Source of the DNA: an uncultured Gelidibacter sp.
GTDB lineage: Bacteria; Bacteroidota; Bacteroidia; Flavobacteriales; Flavobacteriaceae
Reading direction: 5' to 3'
Assembly: GCF_947500795.1 (NCBI RefSeq)
Contig: NZ_CANMTE010000001.1
Location: forward strand, 558,001 to 622,000
DNA: 64,000 bases
Position 1 is the first letter of the stretch. Each line of letters starts with the position of its first letter. Below the pieces are notes generated by a model. The model was not told where the DNA came from. It saw nothing but the letters and a program-made list of their open reading frames with translations, and made no database searches. A program made the position numbers and the translations under genes. Positions 27,891-36,223 of this stretch are shown piece by piece.

Positions 27891-28706
27891 ATGGAAAAAT
27901 TACCTAAAGTCGCATTGCCTATTATTATTGGTGCAATCATCTTAATTATTATCATTGCTAAATCAGCAGTTACAGTCGATTCTGGAAAAGCAGGAGTGTT
28001 ATATAAAACCTTTGGAGGTGGTGTTGTTACAGATGAACCCGCTCTAGGAGAGGGCTTTCATATTGTTGCACCTTGGAATAAAGTGTTTATTTATGAAGTA
28101 AGACAGCAAGAGATCTTTGAAAAAATGAGTGCTTTATCTTCAAACGGATTGGACATTAAATTGGATGCGTCAATTTGGTTTCAACCAGAATATGAAAATC
28201 TCGGAAAATTGCATCAAGAAAAAAGTGAAATGTACAAAGAACGTATTTTATTGCCTGCAGTTAGATCGGCAGCGAGGAGCGTTGTAGGGCGTTATACACC
28301 TGAACAGTTGTATTCTAGTAAAAGAGATGCAATTCAGTCTGAAATTTTTGAAGAAACTAAGAATTATGTAGATGATCAATACATTCAACTTATTGATATT
28401 TTAGTACGTGACGTCACTTTACCACCAACTATTAAAGACGCTATTGAACGTAAATTAAAACAAGAGCAAGAATCTTTAGAATATGAGTTTAGACTGGTTA
28501 CAGCGGCAAAAGAAGCTGAAAAAGTAATTATTGAAGCTCAAGGTAAAGCAGACGCGAATAAAATTTTGAGCGCTTCTTTAACGGACAAAATTCTTCAAGA
28601 TAAAGGTATTGAAGCAACAGTTAAATTGTCTCAATCCACTAATAGTAAGGTTATTGTGATAGGTTCTGGAGATACTGGATTACCAATTATCTTAGGCAAC
28701 CAATAA
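27891..28706 (+). CDS. SPFH/Band 7 (prohibitin-like) membrane protein
   Basis: The 271-residue protein has one N-terminal transmembrane segment (VALPIIIGAIILIIIIAKS), the SPFH domain with SGKAGVLYKTFGG and LGEGFHIVAPWNKV, and a coiled C-terminal region (ERKLKQEQESLEYEFRLVTA, AKEAEKVIIEAQGKADA). It resembles prohibitins and HflC and is likely to form large rings at the membrane, sometimes with FtsH. The VWA protein upstream is a likely partner by position. Confidence 0.88.
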   Translation: MEKLPKVALPIIIGAIILIIIIAKSAVTVDSGKAGVLYKTFGGGVVTDEPALGEGFHIVAPWNKVFIYEVRQQEIFEKMSALSSNGLDIKLDASIWFQPEYENLGKLHQEKSEMYKERILLPAVRSAARSVVGRYTPEQLYSSKRDAIQSEIFEETKNYVDDQYIQLIDILVRDVTLPPTIKDAIERKLKQEQESLEYEFRLVTAAKEAEKVIIEAQGKADANKILSASLTDKILQDKGIEATVKLSQSTNSKVIVIGSGDTGLPIILGNQ

Positions 28707-28784
28707 GCTTAATAAAAAAAATAATCTGCTAAGATTAGGAATTGTAAAATATAATTCCCAATCTTTGTAACACAAAATAAGAAC

Positions 28785-28841
28785 ATGAAGTTTATTCAAT
28801 CACATCATCACCATCATCATATTTGCACTCAAGCGAACTGA
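28785..28841 (+). CDS. hisL: His operon leader peptide (six consecutive histidines)
   Basis: The 18-codon frame reads MKFIQSHHHHHHICTQAN and stops at 28839-28841. The six histidine codons (five CAT, one CAC) occupy 28803-28820. It precedes a terminator and hisG, so it is a translated sensor of charged tRNA-His. The run is longer than chance allows and is in frame with an ATG preceded by an A-rich stretch, as expected in this phylum. Confidence 0.88.
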   Translation: MKFIQSHHHHHHICTQAN

Positions 28842-28902
28842 AGATGTATTGAATAAAGTCAACATATTTTAAAACCGTTTGAGTAAATCAAGCGGTTTTT
28901 TT
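28791..28902 (+). promoter_or_regulatory. Histidine attenuator: competing leader RNA stems
   Basis: Three pairings can be drawn. TTTATTCAAT (28791-28800) is a perfect 10-bp complement of ATTGAATAAA (28848-28857). ACTCAAGCG (28827-28835), at the end of the leader ORF, pairs over 9 bp with CGTTTGAGT (28876-28884). That second partner overlaps the 5' arm of the terminator, so the two folds exclude each other. A ribosome stalled on the early His codons leaves 28827-28835 free to form the antiterminator. One that reaches the stop codon covers it, and the terminator forms. The mechanism is inferred from the established enteric his attenuator. Confidence 0.82.
28871..28902 (+). terminator. Attenuator terminator upstream of hisG
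   Basis: AAAACCGTTTGA (28871-28882) pairs with TCAAGCGGTTTT (28888-28899) as a 12-bp stem with one G-T pair and a GTAAA loop, followed by seven T residues overlapping the 3' arm. It lies about 90 bp before the hisG start. Confidence 0.9.
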
Positions 28903-28991
28903 GTTTCTATATATTTAGGAATTCCTCTCCAGAAGATTTACTCAGACAAAATTTAAGTTAAACTTAAAACTACCCATCATTGGGCACTAAG

Positions 28992-29849
28992 ATGAGTAAA
29001 TTAAAAATAGCAGTACAAAAATCGGGGCGTTTACACGACGACTCCATGAAACTCCTCAACGATGTAGGAATTTCAATAGACAATGGTAAGGATCAACTCA
29101 AGGCATCTGCCAAAAATTTTCCTTTAGAAGTATTTTATCTTCGAAATGGCGATATTCCACAATATCTCCGTGATGGTGTAGTAGATGCGGCAATTATAGG
29201 CGAAAACATTCTGATAGAAAAAGGTACGGATATTTCTGTGATTGAAAAACTGGGGTTTTCGTCATGTAAAGTGTCTATTGCGGTTCCAAAATCATTTAAA
29301 TACAAAGATGTCAGTGATTTGGAAGGGAAGCGTATAGCGACCTCATATCCAAATACGGTGAACCAATTCTTAGAGAAACACAAAATTTCAGCTCAATTAC
29401 ACATCATTAACGGTTCTGTAGAAATTGCGCCAAATATAGGTCTCGCAGATGCTATCGTGGATATAGTTTCGAGCGGAAGTACGTTATTCAAGAATAATTT
29501 GAAGGAAGTTGAAGTGTTGTTGAAGTCTGAAGCTGTTTTGGCTGCGTCACCTTTAATATCTGCTGAAAAAGAAGCTGTTCTTAAGCGTTTACAGTTTAGA
29601 TTTCAGTCGGTTTTAAAAGGGCGACAGTCGAAATATGTGCTTTTAAATGCTCCTAATGATAAACTCGATAAAATTATCAGTGTTCTTCCCGGAATGAGGA
29701 GTCCAACAGTTTTACCTTTAGCTCAAGAGGGCTGGAGCTCAATTCATTCCGTGATTAGTAAAAATGAATTTTGGGATGTGATTGATGAGTTGAAAGCAAA
29801 TGGAGCAGAAGGAATTTTAGTCTGTCCAATTGAAAATATGGTCGTTTAA
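28992..29849 (+). CDS. hisG: ATP phosphoribosyltransferase HisG (long form)
   Basis: HisG joins ATP and PRPP in the first, feedback-controlled step of histidine synthesis. The 285-residue protein has KIAVQKSGRLHDDS, DAAIIGENIL, the PRPP loop DIVSSGSTLFKNNL, and a C-terminal regulatory ACT-like domain (PTVLPLAQEGWSSIHSV), so it is the long, HisZ-independent form. I start at the ATG at 28992 (MSKLKIAV); a TTG at 28980 adds only four residues. It is the first structural gene after the attenuator. Confidence 0.95.
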   Translation: MSKLKIAVQKSGRLHDDSMKLLNDVGISIDNGKDQLKASAKNFPLEVFYLRNGDIPQYLRDGVVDAAIIGENILIEKGTDISVIEKLGFSSCKVSIAVPKSFKYKDVSDLEGKRIATSYPNTVNQFLEKHKISAQLHIINGSVEIAPNIGLADAIVDIVSSGSTLFKNNLKEVEVLLKSEAVLAASPLISAEKEAVLKRLQFRFQSVLKGRQSKYVLLNAPNDKLDKIISVLPGMRSPTVLPLAQEGWSSIHSVISKNEFWDVIDELKANGAEGILVCPIENMVV

Positions 29850-29935: not shown

Positions 29936-31222
29936 ATGCAAATCATAAAAAATCCAAATAAAAACGCTTGGTCCGAATTGATTAAAAGGCCAACGCAATC
30001 TGTGGAAAGCATTGAAGAAACTGTCGTTCAAATCTTTGATGATGTCAGTAGAAATGGCGACATAGCAGTTCAAAAGTACACTTCACTTTTCGACGGTATT
30101 GATGCGCAAGTATCTGTAGTTTCTGAAGAAGAAATTAAAGCGGCAGCTCAAAATGTGCCTCAAGAATTAAAAGCGGCCATTCAACAGGCGAAGCAGAACA
30201 TTGAAAGCTTTCATAAAGCTCAAAAAACTGAAAAAATTGAGGTCGAAACCATGCCGGGCGTTAATTGTTGGCAAGAAAAACGCCCGATAGAAAAAATTGG
30301 TTTGTATATTCCAGGCGGTACAGCCCCGTTATTTTCCACTGTACTCATGTTGGCAGCTCCTGCTAAAATTGCTGGATGTAAGGAAATTATTCTCTGTACA
30401 CCACCAAATAAAAATGGAGTTATTGCCAATGAAATATTATTTGCAGCGCAATTATGTGGAGTTACCAAAATTTATAAAGTTGGCGGGATACAAGCAATTG
30501 CGGCCATGACTTTCGGAACGGAAACGATTCCACAAGTTTATAAAATTTTCGGACCCGGGAATCAATTTGTCACGGTTGCAAAACAATTAGCCACTAAATA
30601 CGGCGTAGCAATCGACATGCCTGCGGGTCCTAGCGAATTATTGGTGGTTGCTGATGATAGCGCCAATGCAGCGTATGTAGCTTCTGATTTGTTAAGTCAA
30701 GCCGAACATGGCGCCGATAGCCAAGTGATTTTGGTTTCCAATTCAGAGTTGTTTTTAACTGCTGTTGAAACCGAGATCAGCAAACAGATTGCAGTATTGC
30801 CAAGAAAGTCAATGGCGCAAAAAGCCATAGATAATTCGAAATTAATATTGATTAGTGATGATCAGGAGGCTTTGGATTTTATCAACGCCTATGGGCCAGA
30901 GCATTTTATTATTTGTTCGAAAAATGAAGAATTATTTTTAAACGGGATTAGTAATGCCGGGTCTGTTTTTGTTGGTGATTATACCCCTGAAAGCGCTGGC
31001 GATTACGCATCGGGCACTAATCACACCCTTCCGACTAACGGCTATAGCAAAGCGTATTCTGGAGTTAATTTGGATAGTTTTTCAAAAAGCATGACGTTTC
31101 AGAGAATCACTAAAGAAGGTTTGCAAAATATTGGGAAATCCATTGAGCTGATGGCGGAAGCTGAAGGGTTGCAAGCTCATAAAAATGCAGTGTCCATTCG
31201 ATTAAATGATTTAGCAAAATGA
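29936..31222 (+). CDS. hisD: Histidinol dehydrogenase HisD
   Basis: HisD performs the last two oxidations from histidinol to histidine. The 428-residue protein shows PGGTAPLFSTVLMLAAPAKI, GGIQAIAAMTFGTETIP, GPGNQFVTVAK, DMPAGPSELLV, SQAEHGADSQ (zinc ligand), GPEHF and SAGDYASGTNHTLPT (catalytic His). The end overlaps hisC by four bases (ATGA). Confidence 0.96.
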   Translation: MQIIKNPNKNAWSELIKRPTQSVESIEETVVQIFDDVSRNGDIAVQKYTSLFDGIDAQVSVVSEEEIKAAAQNVPQELKAAIQQAKQNIESFHKAQKTEKIEVETMPGVNCWQEKRPIEKIGLYIPGGTAPLFSTVLMLAAPAKIAGCKEIILCTPPNKNGVIANEILFAAQLCGVTKIYKVGGIQAIAAMTFGTETIPQVYKIFGPGNQFVTVAKQLATKYGVAIDMPAGPSELLVVADDSANAAYVASDLLSQAEHGADSQVILVSNSELFLTAVETEISKQIAVLPRKSMAQKAIDNSKLILISDDQEALDFINAYGPEHFIICSKNEELFLNGISNAGSVFVGDYTPESAGDYASGTNHTLPTNGYSKAYSGVNLDSFSKSMTFQRITKEGLQNIGKSIELMAEAEGLQAHKNAVSIRLNDLAK

Positions 31223-32256
31223 GTATACAGCACTTAATACGGCCCACAATAAAGGCCTTAAAACCATATTCGTCCGCACGAGACGAATTTAAAGGAGCCA
31301 AAGACGATCTGATTTTCCTTGATGCTAATGAGAATCCGTTTGAGAATGGTATTAATCGGTACCCAGATCCTCAGCAGCGCGAATTAAAGTCTATAATTTC
31401 TGATTTAAAACATGTTCCTATAGAAAATATACTCTTAGGAAACGGAAGTGATGAAGTGTTGGATTTGTTGATTAGAATGTTCTGTGAGCCAAATAAAGAT
31501 AATGTAATCATATTGCCTCCAACCTATGGGATGTATGAGGTTTTAGCAGATATCAATGCGGTGGAAACGCTAAAAGTGAATTTATCTGCTGAACAATTTC
31601 AACCAAAGACAACGACAATTTTGGAAGCAGCAAATGAGCATAGTAAAATTCTGTTTTTATGCTCACCAAATAATCCAACAGGCAATAGTTTTGAAGCGTC
31701 AACTATAGAAAAGTTATTAAAAAACTTTAAAGGTATTGTTCTAATTGATGAAGCTTACATCGACTTTTCTAGTGTCGAAAGTTGGTTGGCGCGACTTGAG
31801 GAATTTCCTAATCTGGTGGTGACACAAACCTTATCAAAAGCCTACGGAATGGCGGGAATTCGTTTGGGAATGTGTTTCGCTTCAACAGAAATAATTGCTA
31901 CGTTAAACAAAATTAAGGCACCTTATAATATCAATGAGCTTACTCAGAAGAAAGCTATTGAAGGGTTAATGAATAATTCTAAAATTAATTGTCAAATTGA
32001 CTCTCTGTTAAAGGAAAAAGAGGTTTTAGTTAAAGCTTTGGATGAAGTGAAATTTGTTCAAAATATTTATCCGTCTGATGCGAATTTCGTCATGATTAAA
32101 GTAGATGACGCTAACAAGCGCTATCAACAGTTGATTGAAAAGGGTGTTGTTATCCGCAACAGAACTTCGCAGCCACTTTGTGAAAATTGCTTGCGACTGA
32201 CTATAGGGACAAAGGAAGAAAATTTGCGCTTGATTGAAATATTGAAAACTTTATAA
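31219..32256 (+). CDS. hisC: Histidinol-phosphate aminotransferase HisC
   Basis: HisC is the PLP enzyme that makes histidinol phosphate. The 345-residue protein has FLDANENPFENG, LGNGSDEVLDLLIR, the SPNNPTGN motif, LIDEAYIDFS and the PLP lysine in TLSKAYGMAGIRLG. C-terminal arginines occur in VIRNRTSQPLCENCLRLTIG. It starts within the hisD stop codon region, so translation is coupled. Confidence 0.95.
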   Translation: MSIQHLIRPTIKALKPYSSARDEFKGAKDDLIFLDANENPFENGINRYPDPQQRELKSIISDLKHVPIENILLGNGSDEVLDLLIRMFCEPNKDNVIILPPTYGMYEVLADINAVETLKVNLSAEQFQPKTTTILEAANEHSKILFLCSPNNPTGNSFEASTIEKLLKNFKGIVLIDEAYIDFSSVESWLARLEEFPNLVVTQTLSKAYGMAGIRLGMCFASTEIIATLNKIKAPYNINELTQKKAIEGLMNNSKINCQIDSLLKEKEVLVKALDEVKFVQNIYPSDANFVMIKVDDANKRYQQLIEKGVVIRNRTSQPLCENCLRLTIGTKEENLRLIEILKTL

Positions 32257-32267
32257 AGAATTAGAAC

Positions 32268-33389
32268 ATGAAGAAAAAAGTATTATTTATAGATCGTGAT
32301 GGTACTATTATTATTGAGCCTGAAGATTATCAAATTGATAGTTTTGGTAAGCTGCAGTTTTATCCAAAAGTGTTTCAGTATTTAGGTAAAATAGCGCGCG
32401 AATTGGATTATGAACTTGTGATGGTCACCAACCAAGATGGTTTAGGAACCGAATCTTTTCCTGAAGATACGTTTTGGCCAGTTCATAATTTTATGGTGAA
32501 TACCTTTCAATCAGAAGGGATTGAATTCAAAGAGCAGTTTATTGATCGTTCATTTGAAGAAGATAACGCACCAACACGAAAACCTCGAACTGGTCTCTTG
32601 AATCAATATTTCTCTGAGGACTATGATTTGGAAAACTCCTTCGTTATTGGAGATCGGTTGACAGATGTGGAATTGGCCAAAAACCTAGGGGCAAAAGGGA
32701 TTTTTATGAATGCGTTTCCTGAAAACAAACCCTCTACGGAAGAATTACGTAACTATATCGCACTTACATCCACAGATTGGGAAACGATATATAATTTCCT
32801 TAAAACTGAAGATCGAACTGCTACTTTGGAACGAAACACCAATGAAACCAAAATCGCTATCCAATTGAATCTCGATGGTACCGGAAAAAGTAATATTGAT
32901 ACTGGCATTGCCTTTTTTGACCATATGTTAGATCAAATTTCGCGTCATGGGCAGTTGGATTTGGATATTAAAGTAAAAGGTGACCTAGAAGTGGATGAAC
33001 ACCATACCATTGAGGACACTGGGATTGCCTTGGGTGAAGTTTTTGCGAAGGCTTTGGGGGATAAATTAGGTGTTGAGCGTTACGGATTTTGTTTGCCAAT
33101 GGACGACTGTTTAGCACAAGCGGCAATTGATTTTGGAGGACGAAATTGGTTGGTTTGGGATGCTGAATTTAAGCGTGAAATGATAGGGAAGATGCCGACC
33201 GAAATGTTTTTCCATTTTTTTAAATCGTTTACTGATGGTGCAAAATGTAATTTGAACATTAAGGCGGAAGGCAGCAATGAGCACCATAAAATAGAGGCTA
33301 TTTTTAAAGCCTTTGCTAAATCGATTAAAATGGCAATCAAACGTGATATGGATAAAATGATTCTGCCGTCAACAAAAGGAGTGCTATAA
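32268..33389 (+). CDS. hisB: Bifunctional histidinol-phosphatase / imidazoleglycerol-phosphate dehydratase HisB
   Basis: The 373-residue protein is a fusion. Residues about 1-170 are the HAD-type phosphatase ([13 protein letters not shown] with the Asp nucleophile, [26 protein letters not shown]). The rest is the dehydratase with two manganese-binding His clusters, [13 protein letters not shown] with [14 protein letters not shown], and [19 protein letters not shown]. This N-phosphatase/C-dehydratase order matches the enteric fused HisB. No other histidinol phosphatase is in the operon. Confidence 0.95.
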
Positions 33390-33411
33390 CATTTAAAAAT
33401 TGAATTCAAAC

Positions 33412-33993
33412 ATGAATATCGTTGTAATAGATTATGGTGCCGGAAACACCAAAAGCGTACAATTTGCTTGTAATCGATTGGGTTTTGACCCTGTATTGAG
33501 TAAGGATTCGCAGGTTATACAAGATGCTGATAAAGTGATATTTCCTGGTGTGGGTCAAGCAAGCAATGCTATGGACATGTTGATAGAATCCGGGTTAGAT
33601 GCTGTGATTCCCTCGCTAAAACAACCTGTTTTGGGTATTTGTTTGGGAATGCAATTATTATGTAATAGCACGGAAGAAGGTAATGCAAAAGGTTTGGGAG
33701 TGTTTGATGTGTCCGTAAAACGATTTTCAAATAATGTAAAAGTGCCGCAGATGGGCTGGAATTCGATTTTTAATCTTGAATCAGATCTTTTTGAAGGCAT
33801 AAAAAACGAAGCTTATATGTACCTTGTGCATAGTTATTATGCAGAAGTGTGTGAACATACCATTGCACAGACAAATTACGATTTAAATTACAGTTCTGCG
33901 CTTAAGAAAGACAACTTTTATGGGGTGCAATTCCATCCGGAAAAAAGTAGCACTGAAGGCGCTCAGATATTAAGAAATTTTTTAAAATTATAA
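33412..33993 (+). CDS. hisH: Imidazole glycerol phosphate synthase, glutaminase subunit HisH
   Basis: HisH releases ammonia from glutamine for HisF. The 193-residue class I amidotransferase has [21 protein letters not shown], the nucleophile elbow [10 protein letters not shown] and the His-Glu pair in [14 protein letters not shown] start at the ATG at 33412 (MNIVVIDYG); the TTG at 33400 is less likely. It is one base upstream of hisA. Confidence 0.95.
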
Positions 33994-33994
33994 G

Positions 33995-34729
33995 ATGAGG
34001 ATAATACCAGCAATAGATGTTATAGACGGCAAATGTGTGCGTTTGACAAAGGGAGATTATAATACAAAGAAAATTTACAATGAAAATCCGTTAGAAGTGG
34101 CCAAACAGTTTGAGGCTTCAGGAATTGAATATTTACACTTGGTGGATTTGGATGGTGCTAAGGCACAACATATTGTGAACTATAAGGTTTTGGAGCAGAT
34201 AGCTTCAAAAACCAGTTTGAAAATCGATTTTGGTGGCGGACTTAAATCTAATGAGGATCTTCACATCGCTTTTAATTCGGGTGCCAAACAAATCACAGGA
34301 GGAAGTATTGCGGTTAACGACCATAGAACTTTTGAGTCTTGGTTGGATAAATATGGATCCGCTAAAATTATTTTAGGAGCAGATTGCAACAATGGCAAAA
34401 TAGCCATTAGTGGTTGGCAGGAAGAAAGCAGCTTAGAAGTGATTCCGTTTATTAAAAACTACCAACGCCGAAATGTGCAATACGTTATTTGTACTGACAT
34501 TGCGAAAGACGGCATGTTGGAGGGACCTTCATTCGACTTATACAACGAAATTATTCAAGAATGTACTAATAACAGTTCAGACCAATCCATAAAATTGATT
34601 GCTTCTGGTGGAATTTCACATATCGATGAATTGCCTAAACTAAAAGAGCTTGGCTGTGAAGCTGTGATAATTGGAAAGGCCATTTATGAAAACAAAATCA
34701 GCCTTCAAGATTTAGAAAAGTACTACTAG
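33995..34729 (+). CDS. hisA: Phosphoribosylformimino-5-aminoimidazole carboxamide ribotide isomerase HisA
   Basis: HisA performs the Amadori rearrangement that yields PRFAR. The 244-residue beta/alpha barrel begins [20 protein letters not shown] with the first catalytic Asp, has [16 protein letters not shown] and the second Asp region [27 protein letters not shown] and [13 protein letters not shown] close the phosphate site. It follows hisH after one base and precedes hisF by 52 bp. Confidence 0.95.
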
Positions 34730-34781
34730 AAAGCAGAATTATAGGGGGCAACTAAAATCTAATGAAGTAACAAACTATACA

Positions 34782-35537
34782 ATGCTTACAAAACGAATAA
34801 TTCCGTGTTTGGATATAAAAAATGGCAGAACCGTAAAAGGTGTGAATTTCGTTAATCTTATAGATGCGGGAGATCCTGTGGTTTTGGCAAAACAATATGC
34901 TGAAAAAGGCGCTGACGAATTGGTGTTTCTGGATATTTCAGCAACCTTGGAAGGTAGGAAAACTACCTTGGAAATGGTTTTGAAAGTCGCTGAACAAGTT
35001 AATATTCCGTTTACAGTTGGTGGTGGCATATCTTCAGTTGAAGATGTTGATTTACTTTTAAAATCGGGCGCTGATAAAGTCTCTATAAATTCTTCCGCCA
35101 TAAATCGTCCTGAGCTTATTGATGAATTGTCAAATAAATTTGGAAGCCAATGTGTGGTCGTTGCAATTGATGCAAAACAAATTAACGGACAGTGGATTGT
35201 GCACTTGGCAGGTGGAAGTATTCCTACAGAATTAGATCTTTTTGATTGGGCTAAAGAAGTGGAAATGCGTGGTGCTGGAGAAATATTGTTCACCTCCATG
35301 GATCATGATGGCACTAAAGACGGATTTGCAAATGAAGCTTTGGCAAGATTGTCAACAGCGTTGAATATTCCCATAATCGCCTCTGGTGGCGCAGGAACTA
35401 TTCAGCATTTTGTGGACACGTTCCAAAAAGGAAAATCTGATGCAGCGCTTGCGGCAAGTGTTTTTCATTTTGGCGAAATTGAAATCAAAGAATTAAAAGA
35501 AAATTTGAAGAAAAATAATATTAAAGTTAGACTTTAA
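34782..35537 (+). CDS. hisF: Imidazole glycerol phosphate synthase, cyclase subunit HisF
   Basis: HisF uses ammonia from HisH to make imidazole glycerol phosphate and AICAR. The 251-residue barrel begins [20 protein letters not shown] with the catalytic Asp, has [34 protein letters not shown], the second Asp in [12 protein letters not shown] and IIASGGAGT. It is paralogous to hisA by fold and complete. Confidence 0.96.
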
Positions 35538-35578
35538 AATTGAGCTCTCAATGTTCATATAACTAACGATGTAAAATG

Positions 35579-35611
35579 TAAGCGATAATTTAGATTATAA
35601 ATCTTCGCTTA
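35579..35611 (+). repeat. Hairpin between hisF and hisIE
   Basis: Outer arms TAAGCGA (35579-35585) and TCGCTTA (35605-35611) and inner arms AGATT (35592-35596) and AATCT (35600-35604) fold together with a 6-base bulge. It fills most of the 89-bp gap before hisIE and is followed by an A-rich stretch, not a T-tract. A role in mRNA processing or stability is possible. Confidence 0.45.
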
Positions 35612-35626
35612 TCAAAAAAAGAAATA

Positions 35627-36223
35627 ATGGATTTAAAATATAATTCAGATGGATTGATTCCCGCAATAATTCAAGACGCTACAACTAAAAACGTACTGAT
35701 GCTCGGCTATATGAATAAAGAAGCGTTTAAGCAGACCAAAGAGCTTAAAAAAGTCACGTTCTTCAGTAGGAGCAAGCAGCGGTTATGGACTAAAGGGGAA
35801 GAAAGTGGAAATGTTCTAAATTTGGTAGATATTAAGGTTGATTGTGACAATGATACCTTATTGATTCAGGTCAACCCAGAAGGTCCAACCTGTCATAAAG
35901 GTTCTGACACCTGTTGGAATGAGCAAAATACATCCAATTTTGGTTTTATTTCTCAATTGGAGCACACTATTGAAGAGCGCCGTAGTAATTCCAATCCGGA
36001 AGAATCGTACGTAGCATCGCTTTTTGCGAAAGGGGTTAATAAATTAGCACAAAAAGTAGGTGAGGAGGCTGTTGAAGTGGTTATTGAGGCGAAAGACAAT
36101 AACGATGAGCTATTTTTAAATGAAAGCGCAGATTTGTTATTTCATTACTTAATGTTACTTCAGGCCAAAGGTTTTAAATTGGAAGACATTGAGCGCGTCC
36201 TTAAAAACCGTGAGAAAAAGTAA
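35627..36223 (+). CDS. hisI: Bifunctional phosphoribosyl-AMP cyclohydrolase / phosphoribosyl-ATP pyrophosphatase HisIE
   Basis: The 198-residue fusion carries HisI first (MLGYMNKEAFKQT, VTFFSRSKQRLWTKGEESG, zinc-binding DCDNDTLL and GPTCHKGSDTCW) and HisE last (RRSNSNPEESYVASLF, KLAQKVGEEAVEVVIEA, NESADLLFHYLMLL). It performs steps two and three of histidine synthesis. It is the last his structural gene, with the TruA-like gene starting after two bases. Confidence 0.96.
   Translation: MDLKYNSDGLIPAIIQDATTKNVLMLGYMNKEAFKQTKELKKVTFFSRSKQRLWTKGEESGNVLNLVDIKVDCDNDTLLIQVNPEGPTCHKGSDTCWNEQNTSNFGFISQLEHTIEERRSNSNPEESYVASLFAKGVNKLAQKVGEEAVEVVIEAKDNNDELFLNESADLLFHYLMLLQAKGFKLEDIERVLKNREKK

Follow-up and report, generated by a model that had tools for sequence, protein, structure and literature searches.

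Ribosome-mediated attenuation requires a ribosome that loads early on the nascent RNA and keeps pace with RNA polymerase. In the enteric his leader, six segments provide the alternative pairings (A:B, C:D and E:F against B:C and D:E). The abstract of Vitreschak et al. 2004 is said to list the Bacteroidetes/Chlorobi among the groups with candidate attenuators. The passage on the enteric his leader in PMC1183508 describes an extra hairpin that blocks read-through after release of the ribosome. Closer to the organism considered here, the relevant passages of a 2021 study of F. psychrophilum report strong hints of attenuation by leader peptides upstream of amino-acid operons, together with a structured 5' element at hisG that is conserved in other genera of the Flavobacteriaceae and is without Rfam hits (PMC9723704). 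The attenuation passage of PMC8305728, which deals with the his genes of this group, concerns enterics. Few relevant papers on his attenuation in Bacteroidota were found in the literature searched, which takes in only a minority of subscription journals.

The locus described here lies in a 64,000-nt stretch of DNA from an uncultured Gelidibacter sp. of the Flavobacteriaceae (GCF_947500795.1, NZ_CANMTE010000001.1, positions 558,001-622,000, forward strand), hereafter termed the window; the parts of the leader and the his genes given below are on its plus strand. The gene hisG (28992-29849; TIGR00070 and TIGR03455, both above cut-off) would be the first of the regulated operon, and is followed by hisD, hisC, a bifunctional hisB, hisH, hisA, hisF and hisIE (29936-36223), each with an NCBIfam match above cut-off. 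The genes from hisG to hisIE are probably carried on a single transcript. The upstream neighbour (27891-28706) is without an NCBIfam match at 1e-10. Between this neighbour and hisG, the sequence harbours the parts of a probable attenuator. As judged from sequence, we put at roughly 0.92 the probability that this leader controls transcription of the his operon through ribosome-mediated attenuation.

The leader open reading frame, MKFIQSHHHHHHICTQAN with its stop included, occupies positions 28785-28841 and is recognised both by direct reading and by the conserved His-rich ORF of its relatives. It starts with ATG at 28785-28787, ends with TGA at 28839-28841, and contains six consecutive His codons at 28803-28820 (CAT CAT CAC CAT CAT CAT), which would be the regulatory codons; the original prediction of such an ORF ahead of hisG is exact in this respect. 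A gap of 29 nt separates the leader stop from an intrinsic terminator (28871-28902), located approximately 90 nt upstream of the his operon and apparent from direct reading, from the fold of the isolated hairpin and from the alignment. Its 12-bp stem (28871-28882 with 28888-28899), 5-nt loop and T run (28896-28902) can be read directly, in agreement with the strong terminator that had been proposed at 28871-28899, and the isolated hairpin has a folding energy of -14.1 kcal/mol.

Three further pairings involve the leader ORF. The first, P1, joins a 5' arm at 28791-28806 to a 3' arm at 28843-28857, directly after the stop codon, and is backed by direct reading, folding and covariation. The ten perfect base pairs between 28791-28800 and 28848-28857 had been noted before, and the stem proves to be longer than was claimed, as it continues past a bulged base (28801) with five more pairs (28802-28806 with 28843-28847). 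Nested within P1 is a second hairpin, P2 (28822-28837; 28822-28826 with 28833-28837), which emerged from the folding, was absent from the original prediction, and holds part of the antiterminator strand. The antiterminator itself, seen by direct reading and in the alignment, consists of nine base pairs, one of them G-U, between ACTCAAGCG at the end of the leader ORF (28827-28835) and CGTTTGAGT inside the 5' arm and loop of the terminator (28876-28884). Antiterminator and terminator both take bases within 28876-28884 and are mutually exclusive, as had been proposed. The minimum-energy fold of 28774-28908 (-33.4 kcal/mol; z = -5.8) contains P1, P2 and the terminator, and none of 200 dinucleotide shuffles was as stable.

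The effect of a ribosome on these pairings was modelled by constrained folding of an RNA that ended at 28887, i.e. before the 3' arm of the terminator, with a 26-nt footprint held unpaired; pseudoknots were excluded, and the size chosen for the footprint was assumed. With the ribosome at His codons 1-4 of the window, the antiterminator formed with a probability of 0.98-0.99 (0.98 at the first codon), decreasing to 0.76 for a ribosome at codon 5 and to 0.10 for one at codon 6, and reaching 0.00 once the stop is occupied; in this model, codons 5 and 6 are the poorer sensors. In the ribosome-free truncated RNA of the window, P1 (0.48) and the antiterminator (0.50) share the ensemble. Across the window and its 79 relatives (described below), a footprint at the first His codon left the antiterminator core above 0.5 in 80 of 80 sequences, while one at the stop brought it below 0.1 in 80 of 80; without a ribosome, the core exceeded 0.5 in 42 of the 80. 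The proposed geometry, in which a ribosome at the early His codons frees the antiterminator strand and one at the stop covers it, is thus reproduced by every sequence in the constrained fold. In the full-length RNA of the window at equilibrium, the terminator wins in every state (0.87-0.96); a ribosome placed on the first His codon still leaves it at 0.91, as against 0.00 for the antiterminator. The switch must therefore be kinetic, acting while the RNA is being synthesised.

In order to compare these features with those of other genomes, relatives were taken as the 80 best loci from a search with the HisG of the window, the nearest being Gelidibacter species; one locus, L067, is without upstream DNA, so that leader counts refer to 79 relatives. 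All 79 possess a His-rich leader ORF at the same place, starting with ATG, 15-18 codons in length and ending 98-185 nt upstream of the HisG match. At least three His codons in a row are present in 77 of the 79, mostly three or four, while the run of six is confined to L001, L002 and L007; it is a trait of a few near relatives and not of the whole family. Conservation of the His run, to which the original prediction had looked, hence holds for the cluster (79/79) but not for its length. The ORF nearly always ends by encoding QA and then one of S, N, K and R, and this near-constancy is explained by CAAGCG being the antiterminator strand.

An alignment of 80 rows (the window and its 79 relatives) was used to assess the stems. 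Standard pairs fill 93.4% of the cells of P1, P2 and the terminator. Double-sided changes occur in 66 of these cells, as compared with 17.9 ± 7.6 in shuffled alignments, none of 500 of which was as high, and with at most 21 when the partners were slid by one to three columns. For the slide of +3 columns, the figures are 19 cells against 66, and a covariation score of 0.035 against 0.134; the number of pairs with double changes, seven in the real stems and eight in the +3 version, is not above this control. Among the 80 sequences, P1 shows changes on both sides in four of the 11 pairs counted, its outer pair being U-A in 57, A-U in eight and unpaired in 14. The terminator stem is paired in 99.3% of cells, with one pair being C-G in 59 and A-U in 21. 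The weakest stem is P2, whose middle pair is non-standard in 32 of 80; its outer pair is C-G in 41, U-A in 27 and U-G in 12.

The antiterminator presents a different picture. Standard pairs fill 91.4% of its cells in the same alignment, and its inner seven pairs are each kept in 77-80 of the 80 sequences, one of them as G-U in all 80, while the outer two fail in 38 and 21. Within the family it hardly covaries, with two double-change pairs as against 1.6 in shuffles. Since its inner pairs are near invariant and P1 and the terminator covary, the antiterminator is backed by conservation, and P1 and the terminator by covariation. The expectation that the competing stems would be conserved with covariation is consequently borne out for P1, P2 and the terminator, whereas the antiterminator is conserved and hardly covaries.

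The same data bear on the idea that the leader encodes a functional His-rich peptide, for example a metal-binding one, and that the terminator merely ends its transcript. Indeed, the peptide is conserved over many genera, as would be expected of such a product; however, all 79 relatives have the ORF in front of hisG, the outer pair of P2 switches between C-G and U-A along with the encoded residues, and conservation of the ORF end tracks the RNA. Furthermore, peptides from outside the family share little but His, and the pairing of leader end with terminator is kept in most of the loci in which it could be tested. A peptide function is thus very unlikely. The earlier reading of the locus as a his attenuator that operates by ribosome stalling gains support from the conserved leader and stems and from the in silico geometry in 80 of 80 sequences. 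The label 'translation-coupled' that it was given fares less well: attenuation is supported, but ribosome-mediated transcription attenuation is the better name. These analyses demonstrate the parts of the attenuator, how far they are conserved and covary, and, in silico, the geometry of the footprint.

Rfam 15 returned no family at gathering score at the his leader, in the window or in 20 related loci. The His_leader family, RF00514, scored 25.5 bits against a gathering value of 49, the matches near the site were all sub-threshold, the leader is not a match to Bacteroid-trp (RF01692; gathering 49 bits), and no T-box was matched at gathering in the window. A structured 5' region with a terminator is also what would be seen if a riboswitch or T-box sensed histidine or tRNA-His directly, with the ORF being incidental. 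Such an arrangement is extremely improbable given these Rfam results and the conservation of the His cluster in phase within the ORF, and attenuation by a translating ribosome remains the preferred reading.

The sequence upstream of the leader suggests where its RNA would start. Promoters of Bacteroidota carry TTTG near -33 and TAnnTTTG near -7. In the window, motif counts point to TTAGG (28735-28739) and ATCTTTG (28761-28767) as putative upstream (-33 type) and downstream (-7 type) promoter boxes, respectively. The corresponding pair, TTxGG plus AxxTTTG, was found in 61 of 80 leaders; shuffled sequences have it at a rate of 0.15%, and of 1598 tiles cut from the window 10 contain it. The motif is post hoc in that it was fitted after the sequences had been viewed. 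The spacing between the two boxes is exactly 26 nt in 60 of the 61 matches, and the distance from the end of TTTG to the leader ATG is 17 nt in the window and 16-19 nt in 56 of the 61. The strict motif TAxxTTTG was discarded, as it occurs in just four of 80 leaders, approximately the shuffled rate. The TTxGG/AxxTTTG pair resembles the Bacteroidota promoter and would start the RNA approximately 10 nt before the leader AUG, the predicted start in the window falling at about 28772-28780. In the window, an imperfect inverted repeat (GATTaGGAATT / AATTCCcAATC; 28733-28763) spans the promoter-like motif; it is not evident in several relatives that were viewed.

Shine-Dalgarno sites are hardly used in Bacteroidota. 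A string of this type is absent upstream of the leader in 79 of 80 cases and present in one, and the 20-base stretch that precedes the leader AUG is 54% A across the 80 leaders.

A sequence of events can be proposed for this attenuator, for which we infer that the leader is translated, that termination occurs in vivo, that the operon responds to histidine and that P1 and P2 contribute. RNA polymerase would start shortly upstream of the leader, as the promoter-like motif suggests, and a ribosome would load at the start of the leader ORF unaided by a Shine-Dalgarno site. When His-tRNA is scarce, the ribosome would wait at His codons 1-4, its footprint opening P1; the strand at 28827-28835 could then pair with the nascent terminator at 28876-28884, and transcription would continue into hisG. 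When His-tRNA is plentiful, the ribosome would reach the stop and cover 28827-28835, allowing the terminator to form. If the ribosome is released, or has never loaded, P1 and P2 may refold and hold the antiterminator strand, such that read-through would stay low.

A covariance model built from the 80-row alignment, here termed R1, was employed to follow the leader through the family. At E <= 1e-3 it matches 259 of 299 family genomes, of which 299 hisG was found in 250: the matches comprise 246 of the 250 genomes with hisG versus 13 of the 49 without, and at 1e-6 they comprise 232 of the 250 versus three of the 49. The two lists were compared by hand, and these counts express co-occurrence in the same genome, adjacency having been checked in part of the genomes. 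Fourteen matches in hisG-bearing family genomes are weak, and the one inspected (L185, in genome G174) is a His leader, MKNYNLHHHLPSSLNAVGM. The four hisG-bearing family genomes that R1 fails to match each possess a divergent His-rich ORF before hisG, an example being the leader MKTTHTHHHVKSSFQTN, whose TTCAAACG faces CGTTTGAA in the terminator. Across the phylum, R1 matches 49 of 296 genomes, and strong matches reach three other families (f2, f34 and f38). Twenty matches from the family and phylum searches were fetched: a His leader is present in all six strong ones viewed and in three of the 14 weak ones (E above 1e-5; L177, L181 and L185). The other weak matches (L175, L176, L180, L182, L183, L184, L186, L187, L188, L189 and L190) have no His leader and resemble ordinary terminators.

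Two loci in this material are unusual. In L247 (contig C43 of genome G273), the leader is kept, but recognisable HisG sequence is limited to residues 1-32 and gives way to sequence that, by eye, resembles the end of hisA; G273 is absent from the genomes with a hisG match, and the locus looks like an internal operon deletion or an assembly fault. In genome G138 the leader is present twice, in nearly identical form and on separate contigs (L178 and L179); the second copy lies approximately 400 bases short of the contig end, and no gene was read downstream of it.

At the level of the phylum, hisG was found in 128 of 148 genomes, 113 of them outside Flavobacteriaceae, and 70 loci outside the family were sampled (the 30 best-scoring and 40 picked for spread). 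A His-rich short ORF, defined as 7-40 codons with at least four His in eight residues, precedes hisG in 26 of the 70, the next amino acid being Ser with nine. In the reverse-strand control, His was found in none of the 70 and the commonest residue was Met (12/70), since CAT reversed reads ATG. A stricter rule of five in eight left 20 loci for His and one each for Ile, Arg and Ser. The 26 phylum leaders differ between families, and three of them (L151, L200 and L222) look doubtful. A terminator above cut-off was recognised in 12 of the 26, and for 10 of these 12 the pairing between the leader end and the terminator (5' arm plus loop) is better than in shuffles at p <= 0.05, L201 and L226 falling short of this value. 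Own pairs of leader end and terminator average -15.1 kcal/mol versus -8.9 for swaps between families, the rows being not fully independent; the weak rows of this test are L199, which beat three of 10 swaps in one direction, and L162, which beat four of eight. A P1-like pairing is not universal outside the family, reaching p <= 0.05 against mononucleotide shuffles in 10 of 26 loci (13 of 37 with extra rows).

The terminator finder is crude and missed a terminator that is visible in the aligned family sequence L020; the figure of 14 of 26 loci without a recognised terminator is therefore an upper bound. The absence of a GC-rich terminator, in the scan, from some His leaders of two families outside Flavobacteriaceae, labelled f23 and f3, would agree with attenuation that acts mainly through translation initiation or Rho and not through an intrinsic terminator. 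For the locus described here this is very improbable, as the window and its 79 aligned relatives have the terminator stem, paired in 99.3% of cells, followed by Ts; an intrinsic terminator governed by the leader ribosome is the reading retained. Within f23, seven loci (L142, L144, L158, L191, L196, L206 and L218) have very His-rich leaders before hisG, several of which end like HHGHHHVH, and the scan found no GC-rich terminator in these seven. In four of them (L158, L196, L206 and L218), a GTG start region pairs with bases past the stop (p 0.05). Judging by these sequences, the f23 leaders possibly have a different, perhaps translational, output. Within f3, the loci L170, L192, L195 and L203 carry His leaders in which, by eye, a hairpin coincides with the stop codon or lies close to it; in L170, L192 and L195 only an A+U-rich hairpin lies ahead of a T run.

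A broader proposal may be considered, namely that Bacteroidota have their own phylum-wide design of peptide sensing, in which P1 encloses both the regulatory codons and the antiterminator strand, mutual exclusion arises from topology (with P2) and not from a shared strand, and ribosomes load without a Shine-Dalgarno site on a leader that starts approximately 10 nt before its AUG. We regard this as a tentative suggestion that is somewhat more likely to fail than to hold. If true, it would imply a dependable coupling between ribosome and RNA polymerase at 5' ends throughout the phylum.

The Gelidibacter genome was also searched for leaders of other operons. The trpE gene is preceded by a leader, MYTILNHTWWWNFSKQHS, and a terminator (L232; contig C4, about 1290-1412). 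This leader matches Rfam family RF01692, Bacteroid-trp (59.5 bits versus 49), and the genome therefore has, besides the his leader, at least one further peptide leader, which is a catalogued one; no strong antiterminator was found there in a duplex test, which gave -4.3 kcal/mol for the segments chosen. Approximately 180-80 bases upstream of thrA (L235; contig C1) lies an ORF rich in Thr and Ile, MYSIHYIKNLFSTFISTKGTTSIIGITPWG; a hairpin followed by a weak T run overlaps the end of this ORF. This ORF is possibly a thr-type leader with an odd layout, to judge from its composition and position. Ahead of pheA, ilvD, other aspartokinase genes and a gene resembling leuA, the candidate leaders were unconvincing.

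With its hallmarks found in 246 of 250 hisG-bearing family genomes by the model and in the other four by inspection, and with similar leaders in several other families, the leader suggests a mode of his operon regulation in a large group. It could also serve as a small natural reporter that makes transcription-translation coupling in Bacteroidota directly testable, and R1 supplies a covariance model for an element that drew no match at gathering from any Rfam 15 family.

Finally, the hisG leader may be set beside the systems already described. It shares with the enterobacterial his attenuator (RF00514) a leader ORF with tandem His codons, a terminator and a competing antiterminator, all before the his operon. 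In comparison with the enteric leader it has fewer elements, and its antiterminator strand is placed within the P1 loop instead of in the P1 3' arm; by analogy, P1 and P2 could do the job of the extra enteric hairpin. The his attenuators of the Bacillus cereus group, Peptostreptococcaceae and Erysipelotrichales, as outlined in the relevant part of PMC9413887, have three to five His in a row with a terminator and an antiterminator; these belong to another phylum (Firmicutes) and are likened here by description, not by sequence. The Bacteroid-trp leader (RF01692), as presented in the corresponding passages of PMC2864571, is likewise a peptide-leader RNA of Bacteroidota, for another amino acid and another operon. 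A further counterpart is the hisG 5' element of F. psychrophilum, which, from its account in PMC9723704, has the same position and occurs in the same family; going by that description rather than by sequence, it is probably the same element. The hisG leader is thus not a new kind of system, attenuation having already been indicated for Flavobacteriaceae. What is new here is the placement of the antiterminator strand in the P1 loop, the covariation and quantified conservation of the element, and its spread over the phylum.
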